A DNA stretch of 64,000 nt, taken from contig CALJEI010000004.1 in NCBI GenBank assembly GCA_938074605.1, positions 1 to 64,000 of the forward strand. Direction: 5' to 3'. The stretch comes from an uncultured Ignisphaera sp. GTDB taxonomy: Archaea > Thermoproteota > Thermoprotei_A > Sulfolobales > Ignisphaeraceae. Shown here in pieces: positions 43,188-46,572 of this stretch (position 1 is its first letter; each line of letters starts with the position of its first letter). The position numbers were made by a program, and so were the translations under genes. The notes under the pieces are model-generated. The model saw only the letters and a program-made list of their open reading frames with translations. It had not been told where the DNA came from and made no database searches.

Positions 43188-43266
43188 TAGTCTACTTATA
43201 TGATGATAGCACCTCCTACCTGAGTTATGATGAACGGTAAGAGTGCTGAATATTTATAAAAAATTA

Positions 43267-44283
43267 ATGGTGTATACCTTGAAAGGATGTGTAGTAGGGG
43301 TAGATATAGGGGCAACATGGACAAGAATTGCGTTAGCAGACTTAAGTGGAACAATTTTAGATAAATACATTTTTAGAACTCCAAAAGAGGGTGATAAATA
43401 TACAATTGCAAATACTATAACTACAAATATTATTCAGCGCTACAAAGAATATACCGTTGATATAAAGGCTATTGGAATAGGTACAGCAGGACCTATTGAA
43501 TTATCAACAGGAATGGTTATCAACTCGCCAAATATTCCTATACGCACCTTTGAGCTTGCAAGACCCATTCAGGATACATTAAAAAAACCTGTTATAATGG
43601 TTAATGACTGTGTAGCTGCAGTTTGGGGAGAGAAGATACTTGGCTTAGGAAAAGACTATAGTAATATAGTGTATATAACAATAAGCAGTGGAATAGGTGG
43701 CGGCATGATTGTAAATGATACATTATTACTGGGTAAGATGGGGAATGCACATGAAATTGGGCACACCATAGTAGATGTAAGTGGCAAAATGAGGTGTGGA
43801 TGTGGAGGATATGGTCATTGGGAAGCATATGCCAGTGGTGTAAACATACCAAGATTTGCAAGGGTTCTTTTAAATGAAATAAGTATAGATGCAGATGAGA
43901 AAGAGTCGCCCATATACAGAGCATTTATGGAGGAAACTCTATCAACAGAGCTAATTTATAGTGAAGCTACCAAAGGAGATAAACTTGCACTTAAAATAGT
44001 AAATGAAATTAATAAGTATAATATAGCAGGTTTTGAAAATACTATAAACCTTTATGATCCAGAATTGATATCAGTAGGCGGTGCAGTTATACTAAGAAAT
44101 AAAGATATTGTATTTAAAAGAATAGTCGATGGCATTGCGAATTCGAAGGGTGTAGTAACTTCTTTGCCAAAAATTGTAATTACACCGTTTGGAGATGATA
44201 TTGTGCTTATAGGTGCAGTAGCATTAGCTTTAACACCTCCGCAAAATCTCATTAAGATGCTTAAGTATATCCAATATGTTTGA
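43267..44283 (+). CDS. ROK-family sugar kinase (glucokinase-like)
   Basis: ATP-dependent hexose kinase of the ROK family. The ATP-binding start GVDIGATWTRIA is clear, and the catalytic Asp is in MVNDCVAAVWGE. The sugar-binding EIGH motif is followed by the zinc loop MRCGCGGYGHWEAY. In this loop the third cysteine of the usual C-x-C-x4-C pattern is a histidine. Archaeal ROK enzymes often use several hexoses, so the substrate is left open. ATG 43267 is used; TTG 43279 with GGTG just upstream is an alternative. The next gene begins 6 bp after its stop. Confidence 0.88.
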   Translation: MVYTLKGCVVGVDIGATWTRIALADLSGTILDKYIFRTPKEGDKYTIANTITTNIIQRYKEYTVDIKAIGIGTAGPIELSTGMVINSPNIPIRTFELARPIQDTLKKPVIMVNDCVAAVWGEKILGLGKDYSNIVYITISSGIGGGMIVNDTLLLGKMGNAHEIGHTIVDVSGKMRCGCGGYGHWEAYASGVNIPRFARVLLNEISIDADEKESPIYRAFMEETLSTELIYSEATKGDKLALKIVNEINKYNIAGFENTINLYDPELISVGGAVILRNKDIVFKRIVDGIANSKGVVTSLPKIVITPFGDDIVLIGAVALALTPPQNLIKMLKYIQYV

Positions 44284-44289
44284 AGATTT

Positions 44290-45234
44290 ATGCCGCAAAG
44301 AACTATTACATTAAATAAAAGGATTGATATAAATAAATTGTTTTACCCATCTTTTATTCTTCCACTATTTGAAATAGATGTAGAGACAGGAACTCTTTTT
44401 AAGAGATGGGGCTACTGTAGGAATCTTAAGATAAGAAGAGATGATAATAACATTTTGGTAACTCATGAAGAGAGGGTATGTCTTGATTATGTAGATGAGA
44501 TTCTGGGGTTATGGTTTGATATCAATAGGTATAGGAGGAACATTAGTAGAAACTATCTAGAATTAATTGACAGAATAATGGAAATGCATGGTGAGCTGGG
44601 AATTGCAACATCGTCTAACGATGATATTGAAATCTTCTCATCGATATTTTTGTCACGTATAACAGACTTTCACAGAAATACTGTTAGATGGCTTAGAAGC
44701 ATACTCTCTATACATGGAAGTCTGGATAGAATTCTACATTTGAATAACTACAATAATATCTTTAAGAATATTAGCAATAGCTTTCAAATTAGACAGCTAA
44801 TAACAGCTCTTAAGGATTATATTGGTGTAAGGGATACAGTATTTAGGTATAGGAATTATATTTATGACGTCAAGAATACTCTTTTTAAGATAAAGTTTGT
44901 AGGACCAAAGGTTGTATATGCATACATACTCTTTATTCTAAAGAATACCAGCTATGCGCCAATAGATAGAAATTTTTTAAAATTTCTTAAAACATTTGCC
45001 ATAACACAAACACTTATTGGGAGGATACCCCAAAAAAGATGGTGTGCAACATATATTTGTGAACTCTGTAAATATAGAGAGGAATGCACATTACATAAAG
45101 TTAGAAGTGTTTTTGGTTATATGAGTGGATGGTTTCAAACTATTGCATATCTTCATATCAAAACAATGTGTAACATAGGGAAATGTAATATCTGTAAGCT
45201 TAAAGAAATATGTGTTAGCAGTCAAATATATTAA
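44290..45234 (+). CDS. HhH-GPD DNA-glycosylase-like protein with two cysteine quartets
   Basis: A 314-residue protein resembling the HhH-GPD base-excision glycosylases. A helical domain contains FSSIFLSRITDFHRNTVRW, then a helix-hairpin-helix-like segment FVGPKVVYAYILF followed by APIDRN, where the Asp fits the catalytic position. The C-terminus carries Cys252, 257, 260, 266 and again Cys294, 299, 302, 308. Both quartets have exactly C-x4-C-x2-C-x5-C spacing, similar to the [4Fe-4S] loop of endonuclease III (C-x6-C-x2-C-x5-C). It follows the ROK gene by 6 bp and overlaps the convergent nep1 gene by 20 bp. Base specificity is unknown. Confidence 0.65.
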   Translation: MPQRTITLNKRIDINKLFYPSFILPLFEIDVETGTLFKRWGYCRNLKIRRDDNNILVTHEERVCLDYVDEILGLWFDINRYRRNISRNYLELIDRIMEMHGELGIATSSNDDIEIFSSIFLSRITDFHRNTVRWLRSILSIHGSLDRILHLNNYNNIFKNISNSFQIRQLITALKDYIGVRDTVFRYRNYIYDVKNTLFKIKFVGPKVVYAYILFILKNTSYAPIDRNFLKFLKTFAITQTLIGRIPQKRWCATYICELCKYREECTLHKVRSVFGYMSGWFQTIAYLHIKTMCNIGKCNICKLKEICVSSQIY

Positions 45235-45919
45235 GAGCATTTTCAATACCCTCTATTACTCTTGAAAGCACAATCCATGCTTCAAGAACTTTTGGGTATA
45301 TAGATATCTTTTTAGTTGCAAGCTTTAAGGTAGATTCTTCAAAATCACCATGCTGAAATCCACCGATAATTATGCAGACCTTTCTATCGTTATTCATAAG
45401 ACTAGCAATGAAATTACCTAGAGTATCTGGGGATCGTTTAATTCCTTTTTCATGTAACAATATAATTTCGTCAAAACCTTTTTCATACATAAATTGTTGC
45501 AGAGATCTTTTCTCTACAACCATTAAAGGCTTACTAGAATTTGGGGGAACCTTTCCTAGCTTAAGGAGCTGTTCCATTAAGCCTACAAATCTATTATAGT
45601 TCCGTGGAATTCTAGTTTTAGGATCCACATGTATTATTATGTCATTTAATGTGTGTATATAGAACCTTAGTAAACCAGAGTCGTTTAATGGTGAAGATAA
45701 TGCAAGGAGAAGGGATATATGGACTATATCGGGACGGCCACGTTTGTACCACTTTGGCAATGATTTCATGGCTCTATAATGTAACGATATATCTAAGAGG
45801 ATATCACATGCCTTCTTTCCTTTCTTTTTAGCGCTATTTATTACAGTACTGTGAATCTGTATTTCTTTTGGTATGAGTTCTAAACCGGATTCTGCTAAAA
45901 CTATTGTTAGTGGATACAT
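45215..45919 (-). CDS. nep1: rRNA pseudouridine N1-methyltransferase Nep1
   Basis: SPOUT-fold methyltransferase of the Nep1/Emg1 family, which methylates a 16S rRNA pseudouridine (position 914 in archaeal numbering) and aids small-subunit assembly. Family blocks are KSLPKWYKRGRPDIVHISLL, YIHTLNDIIIHV, and IPRNYNRFVGLMEQL. The C-terminal SAM-binding region has IIGGFQHGDF. ATG 45919 gives 234 residues and begins at the family's first strand; an upstream TTG at 45934 adds five. Confidence 0.93.
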   Translation of the reverse strand: MYPLTIVLAESGLELIPKEIQIHSTVINSAKKKGKKACDILLDISLHYRAMKSLPKWYKRGRPDIVHISLLLALSSPLNDSGLLRFYIHTLNDIIIHVDPKTRIPRNYNRFVGLMEQLLKLGKVPPNSSKPLMVVEKRSLQQFMYEKGFDEIILLHEKGIKRSPDTLGNFIASLMNNDRKVCIIIGGFQHGDFEESTLKLATKKISIYPKVLEAWIVLSRVIEGIENALNIFDC

Positions 45920-46056
45920 TTCAATCCCTATCAATTTTTAGCTCATATCTGTAGCAGGTAAAAATATATTGTAGTTCACATCTAAAATATTTGCTCAATA
46001 ATTTAAAATTCTAAATATAATCTAGTGTATGGAAAAACATTGGTTGGGTGATTATA

Positions 46057-46572
46057 TTGCTTACTAAAAGAAGCTTGGAAGTAAGAAGGCATCCAGTACA
46101 TGAGGATAAGATTCTGGAAGCTCTATATAAGTTATTGATACTAGATTCCATTAATCTGGCTCTATATGTAGACTTTTCACTATTACGCTATCCATTAATA
46201 AAAATAACAGTTATGCCAATAGTAGCCGATATTGATGGTGAACCTTATGGATTAAATGAATTGATAGGAACTAGCATAATGGAGATTATTCTAAATATAG
46301 AAAGTTTGTATCAAAATGAGGTTGATCTTAATAAGGATGTACTTTCAATGAAATTATTATGTGAACACGGATGGATTGTATATGACTACACTGTATTAAG
46401 GTCAGAACAGGGTATACCATACACTTCTAAGCTATGGATACATATGACTGAGGGTAGGCCCTGGCACGAAGCTATCGATGTTGATGAAGAATTCTCCAAG
46501 TATATGAACGAAGTCGTCAGTAAAATTGTTGTAAAGGCTAGAAAGATTCTTGAGTATGATGGATATCTTTAG
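46057..46572 (+). CDS. Conserved protein of unknown function
   Basis: A 171-residue alpha/beta protein, no family recognised. It has an acidic overall composition with strands such as IKITVMPIVADID and a C-terminal helix. TTG 46057 is preceded by GGGTGAT ending 5 nt upstream, a strong archaeal ribosome site; the GTG at 46048 lies inside that site. It is divergent from nep1 and precedes HMG-CoA synthase on the same strand with a 99-bp gap. Confidence 0.6.
   Translation: MLTKRSLEVRRHPVHEDKILEALYKLLILDSINLALYVDFSLLRYPLIKITVMPIVADIDGEPYGLNELIGTSIMEIILNIESLYQNEVDLNKDVLSMKLLCEHGWIVYDYTVLRSEQGIPYTSKLWIHMTEGRPWHEAIDVDEEFSKYMNEVVSKIVVKARKILEYDGYL

Follow-up and report, generated by a model that had tools for sequence, protein, structure and literature searches.

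An unnamed Thermoproteota family of predicted OGG1-fold HhH-GPD glycosylases in which an extra cysteine quartet is invariant and an endonuclease III-type quartet dispensable

There is continuing debate on whether the iron-sulphur (Fe-S) cluster of DNA glycosylases serves their structure, contacts DNA or transfers charge. OGG1 works without any Fe-S cluster (PMC9266487). Endonuclease III (EndoIII) and MutY (TIGR01083; PF00730 with PF10576) combine an HhH-GPD core with a C-terminal [4Fe-4S] loop, in which the first spacer of EndoIII is six residues long. The mammalian enzyme MUTYH is an HhH-GPD glycosylase with two metal sites, the second being a zinc linchpin in the interdomain connector (PMC12000561). 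The crenarchaeal HhH-GPD glycosylase SiRe_0278 (Sis-HhH-GPD), which belongs to a different family from the one described here, has a Fe-S loop with one canonical quartet (C203, C210, C213, C219), carries serine in place of the catalytic aspartate and repairs alkylated bases (PMC11754123). AGOG (PF09171) is an archaeal HhH-GPD glycosylase acting on 8-oxoguanine. In the literature searched, with most subscription journals outside its scope, we found no glycosylase with two Fe-S clusters or with a second one.

The window, a stretch of 64,000 nucleotides from a contig of an uncultured Ignisphaera sp., encodes a protein with ten cysteines (positions 43, 64, 252, 257, 260, 266, 294, 299, 302 and 308; Table 1). 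The last eight form two quartets with the same pattern, C-x4-C-x2-C-x5-C, separated by 27 residues (267-293), and the open reading frame, the spacing and the gap were confirmed exactly as read in the first-pass annotation of this DNA. When the protein's own residues were shuffled 300,000 times, one such quartet arose at a frequency of 1.9e-4 and two never did; conservation among homologues is nevertheless the stronger test. Comparison with the nearest relative (63% identity) gave 70/62/127 differences at the three codon positions, with dN 0.22 and dS 1.32 (dN/dS about 0.16), indicative of purifying selection, and we therefore regard this as a working gene.

Table 1. Features of the glycosylase gene and its immediate neighbours, in window coordinates
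Feature	Coordinates	Strand	Basis or remarks
Two-quartet OGG1-fold HhH-GPD glycosylase gene	44290..45234	+	314 aa; ORF calls, intact homologues, dN/dS, AlphaFold model
N-terminal beta-rich domain, residues 1-75	44290..44514	+	As in OGG1/AlkA-type glycosylases; full-length Foldseek alignments to OGG structures
HhH-GPD core start, L121-S122-x-x-T125-D126...W134	44650..44691	+	EndoIII alignment, cf. LLSxQxTD
Helix-hairpin-helix, residues 191-215	44860..44934	+	Model helices 191-199 and 206-215
Predicted catalytic Lys207	44908-44910	+	101/101 homologues; aligned with hOGG1 GTKVAD, EndoIII GVGRKTA
Predicted catalytic Asp226, GPD loop A-P-I-D-R-N	44965..44967	+	101/101 homologues; aligned with hOGG1 P-V-D-V-H
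Quartet 1, C252-x4-C257-x2-C260-x5-C266	45043..45087	+	Extra putative metal site; complete in 101/101 homologues
Long helix 267-294 between the quartets	45088..45171	+	Model helix 267-294; carries G280-W281-x-Q283-T-x-x-Y287
Quartet 2, C294-x4-C299-x2-C302-x5-C308	45169..45213	+	Canonical EndoIII-type loop by alignment, first spacer shortened
ROK-family kinase gene	43243..44283	+	PF00480 3e-54; upstream, 6 bp before glycosylase start
EMG1/Nep1 methyltransferase gene	45215..45934	-	PF03587 5e-62; convergent, 20 bp overlap with glycosylase 3' end

Homologues were found in 25 of 60 close genomes and in 85 of 300 Thermoproteota genomes sampled evenly across the phylum; a search for relatives in viral contigs found none. 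The named records carrying them are metagenome-assembled genomes of Ignisphaera, Desulfurococcales, Sulfolobales, Pyrodictium, Thermogladius, Bathyarchaeota, Geocrenenecus, Culexarchaeum and others. All conservation counts below refer to an alignment of 101 distinct homologues, and contigs were scanned with a closer alignment, the wide profile A1 being too diverse for that use. The window protein alone had no HhH-GPD match in Pfam even at E = 10 and nothing useful in NCBIfam or among PDB sequences, so family profiles were required. Against the sequences of solved structures these profiles matched EndoIII (4e-7) and OGG1 (3e-5), and a deep-clade profile did so at 6e-12 and 7e-9, respectively, the core and the cluster loop forming two distinct aligned segments. 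Single deep members matched TIGR00588 (ogg, 8e-12), TIGR01083 (nth, 7e-10), PF00730 (HhH-GPD, 1.8e-4) and PF10576 (EndIII_4Fe-2S, 0.0024), the last in 9 of 16 deep-clade members; TIGR00588 was matched by 14 of the 16 and by 9 of 19 members of A1. The profile check of the first-pass proposal thus succeeded for the family and its relatives and failed for the window protein by itself, and membership of the HhH-GPD superfamily is firm.

Affiliation within the superfamily is a separate matter. No Pfam or NCBIfam model names the glycosylase family, Pfam OGG_N had no match in it, and PF09171 had none at E <= 1. Where curated cut-offs are shown, the single-member scores fall below them: the TIGR00588 equivalog score was not reached by the family, nor was that of TIGR01083 (25.7 bits in the deep member L116 against a cut-off of 211.7). 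We do not claim membership in OGG1 proper, because these curated scores fail, the equivalent of hOGG1 Cys253 (position 211) is not kept, being Ala or Ser and also Leu or Gly, and no activity is known.

An AlphaFold2 model built from 32 family sequences had a mean pLDDT of 94.5 and a pTM of 0.92. Its 50 best fold matches in the PDB (Foldseek) were all OGG-type 8-oxoguanine glycosylases, aligned at full length over about 300-330 columns with TM scores of 0.63-0.71 and E values down to 2e-8. The fold is thus shared from end to end with OGG1 and bacterial Ogg (TIGR00588; hOGG1, Clostridium Ogg 3i0w and MBOgg1 4ejy), although identity is only about 12% and the window protein differs from them in having two quartets. 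Its N-terminal domain, which EndoIII does not have, comprises strands 3-7, 27-30, 35-38, 46-51 and 54-58 in the model and has conserved S21, K38 and G41. Conservation at the start of the core is high (L121 and W134 in 100/101, S122 in 94/101 and T125 in 88/101), and further along Gly205 is invariant and P224 is found in 94/101. The HhH-like segment proposed in the first-pass annotation is therefore real, as Lys207 and Asp226 lie inside the HhH-GPD region matched by the family profiles.

In the profile alignment Lys207 matches the catalytic lysine of hOGG1, Asp226 its GPD aspartate, and Gln283 with residue 287 its 8-oxoguanine-pocket helix, the helix motif aligning with G-W-A-Q315-A-V-L-F319 (3ih7). 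We take the hOGG1 counterparts to be K249 (Lys207), D268 (Asp226), Q315 (Gln283), F319 (residue 287) and H270 (residue 228). Gln283 is present and residue 287 is aromatic (Y/F/W) in all 101 homologues, and residue 228 is always His or Asn, with Asn in the window protein, so that the catalytic Lys and Asp and the equivalents of Gln315, Phe319 and His270 are features in common with OGG1/Ogg. Judging from this conserved set and its alignment to hOGG1, the protein most likely works as a bifunctional glycosylase whose pocket resembles that of OGG1. A protein that keeps the HhH-GPD fold but is catalytically inactive, or binds DNA outside repair, would agree with the facts that no activity is known and that no library searched names the family; we consider it very unlikely, since Lys207, Asp226 and Gln283 are invariant in 101 homologues and dN/dS is 0.16.

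The two quartets differ in position and history. Quartet 1 comes after the GPD aspartate and before the last helix, a position at which none of the OGG1, AlkA or EndoIII sequences aligned has anything comparable; it is kept at identities as low as about 21-25%, and in some clades its C2-C3 spacing varies from 2 to 12. Quartet 2 is found beyond the last helix, at the place of the EndoIII cluster. In the deep clade it reads C-x6-C-x2-C-x5-C in 13 sequences, with spacers of x6, x2 and x7 in four more, and can be matched to the EndoIII cluster loop position for position, apart from the core. The x4 variant occurs in 38 homologues including the window protein, and a first spacer of four, compared with six in EndoIII, characterizes the window's clade. 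On these alignments quartet 2 is identified as the canonical EndoIII cluster loop and quartet 1 as the extra, family-specific one, which reverses the picture implied at the outset.

The suggestion of a duplicated DNA-reading loop, also made at the outset, is not supported in that form, quartet 2 being the canonical EndoIII loop and quartet 1 an ancient family-specific insertion at another position. That the quartets arose by recent tandem duplication of a single loop would account for their identical spacing in the window protein and for a similar residue bias in both. We regard such an origin as extremely improbable: the quartets occupy distinct sites in the structure, with a 28-residue helix between them, quartet 1 had arisen before any of the 101 homologues diverged, and the spacings of the two differ from each other in the deep clade. 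Recent loop duplication was accordingly rejected on the tree and the structural positions, though a much older copying event is conceivable.

Conservation of the two quartets, which the first-pass annotation had proposed to check, holds for one of them. The first is invariant, whereas the second is complete in 56 homologues and absent from 45. Quartet 2 changed at least eight times on a tree for which the quartet columns had been left out of the alignment, a count that does not give the direction of the changes; because quartet 2 is homologous to the EndoIII loop, repeated loss is the simplest reading. One homologue (L073:4944-5900, + strand) retains three of the four cysteines of quartet 2 (C-x4-C-x2-C, followed by F-V-V), possibly owing to decay or loss in progress or to a frameshift close to the C-terminus. 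Among genomes of the window's genus, the two-quartet form is found in five and a quartet-1-only form from another clade in four, with both in none (L018, L020, L021 and L023 against L001-L005); these apparently mutually exclusive forms suggest that one was replaced by a gene from another lineage.

Four cysteines can bind zinc as well as an Fe-S cluster. For quartet 2, homology to the EndoIII loop favours Fe-S. For quartet 1, we infer the same preference from the exact EndoIII spacing, C-x6-C-x2-C-x5-C, which this quartet shows in 19 of 101 homologues, and from a bias towards C-P-L/I-R-x-x-C that it shares with quartet 2; Fe-S is thus the favoured prediction at both sites. When quartet-1 fragments were compared with Pfam, there was no decisive Fe-S or zinc match. 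The best Fe-S match was to WhiB, a [4Fe-4S] family (0.0045, in one of eight fragments tested), and one fragment matched a zinc finger weakly (0.12). The main rival to Fe-S is that quartet 1 binds a structural zinc like the MUTYH zinc linchpin, leaving quartet 2 as the sole [4Fe-4S] site and no such site where quartet 2 is lost. An HhH-GPD glycosylase with both Fe-S and zinc has precedent (PMC12000561, PMC9266487), and zinc is often bound by C4 sites whose loops vary. Set against the EndoIII spacing and the shared residue bias, and given that the MUTYH zinc site lies elsewhere in the chain, in the connector that joins the C-terminal domain, zinc at quartet 1 seems unlikely to us.

Taken together, the protein is probably an HhH-GPD base-excision glycosylase of OGG1 architecture with two cysteine-ligated clusters, most likely both [4Fe-4S], of which that at quartet 1 is indispensable. 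The initial description, glycosylase-like with possibly two clusters, thus survives as the best reading through the family profiles and the OGG1 fold, although the window protein on its own remains unmatched. The predicted architecture runs from the N-terminal domain through the HhH-GPD core to a final helix bearing the base-pocket residues. The enzyme would bind damaged DNA and flip a modified base, probably an oxidised purine, into the pocket formed by Gln283 and Tyr287, where Lys207 with Asp226 would break the glycosidic bond and probably also incise the strand at the abasic site. In the AlphaFold model the quartets flank helix 267-294, one per end, and the two clusters would accordingly sit at its two ends. 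We infer that quartet 1 probably fixes the Gln283/Tyr287 helix and the nearby DNA-contacting loops in place, a role that could not be dispensed with, while quartet 2 could be lost.

The family is thus an unnamed new one of Thermoproteota, in which an OGG1-fold glycosylase has an invariant extra quartet and a dispensable canonical quartet. If both quartets hold clusters, it offers a natural experiment, in which the extra cluster was never lost and the canonical one was lost several times, on an OGG1 scaffold that normally has neither, and direct comparison is possible between homologues that have one site and those that have both.

The family was also considered as a replacement for AGOG. The host has a separate AGOG gene (G000:C2:189254), besides an Nth-type HhH-GPD gene and UDG, and strong AGOG matches occur in 47 of the 85 genomes that have the family, as against 32 of the 215 that lack it. 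Replacement was rejected, as AGOG is more, not less, frequent alongside the family, which argues for a substrate of the family's own; given this coexistence, 8-oxoguanine need not be the main substrate.

A gene for a radical-SAM protein of about 258 residues (PF04055 7e-23; C-x3-C-x2-C) lies within 400 bp of the glycosylase gene in 54 of 94 assessable loci (for example L056:5869-6642, - strand). The arrangements comprise 23 on the same strand downstream, 15 tail-to-tail, 9 on the same strand upstream and 7 divergent, and the genes often overlap by a few bases. Among the 300 genomes, counted without regard to kinship, 84 have both genes, one has the glycosylase only, 32 the radical-SAM gene only and 183 neither. 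These data raise the possibility of a two-gene system in which one partner, the radical-SAM enzyme, would generate a modified base, repair it or act on a product, and the other, the glycosylase, would excise it or guard against it. Adjacency in four arrangements, often with slight overlap, and co-occurrence in 84 of 85 glycosylase genomes speak for it; yet the orthologue in the window's own genome is on another contig (G000:C2:35218-35994), the co-occurrence counts ignore kinship, repeat runs of the partner's structure model agreed only moderately, and a fold search with the partner gave generic radical-SAM enzymes only (BlsE, PFL-activating enzyme, lipoyl synthase). We therefore hold it tentatively, as a possibility short of even, and it would add a partner to the probable base-excision glycosylase without contradicting it. 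The host also encodes, at G000:C4:74397-75152 (+), a further radical-SAM paralogue that is more distantly related (42% identity), as do many relatives.

The recurrent radical-SAM neighbour points to a repair or modification pathway of hyperthermophilic archaea that is not described in the literature searched. A broader reading would make this an undescribed repair or modification-control system of Thermoproteota, in which an OGG1-fold glycosylase needs a new second Fe-S cluster, invariant and placed where the lesion-recognition helix starts, and cooperates with a radical-SAM enzyme dedicated to it on a lesion or modified base outside the range of AGOG, Nth and UDG; as a whole, cluster included, this is somewhat doubtful.

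A dCTP deaminase gene is adjacent to or near the glycosylase gene in about a dozen loci. In one of them (L071:4441-4980, + strand; TIGR02274 2e-43) there is a one-base overlap between the deaminase stop codon and the start of the glycosylase gene, and the two genes also adjoin in L078, L080, L072, L074, L077, L079, L082 and L083. The neighbours in the window itself, the ROK kinase, a phosphoglycerate mutase and Nep1, are common to close relatives only: ROK kinase adjacency is seen in L054 and L055, and in L069 with one ORF between, and EMG1/Nep1 is a conserved neighbour in five loci. Between Nep1 and an ACP-synthase-III/HMG-CoA-synthase-like gene lies an ORF of 174 aa (46048-46572, + strand) that had no Pfam match at E <= 0.001 and is kept in L054 and L055.
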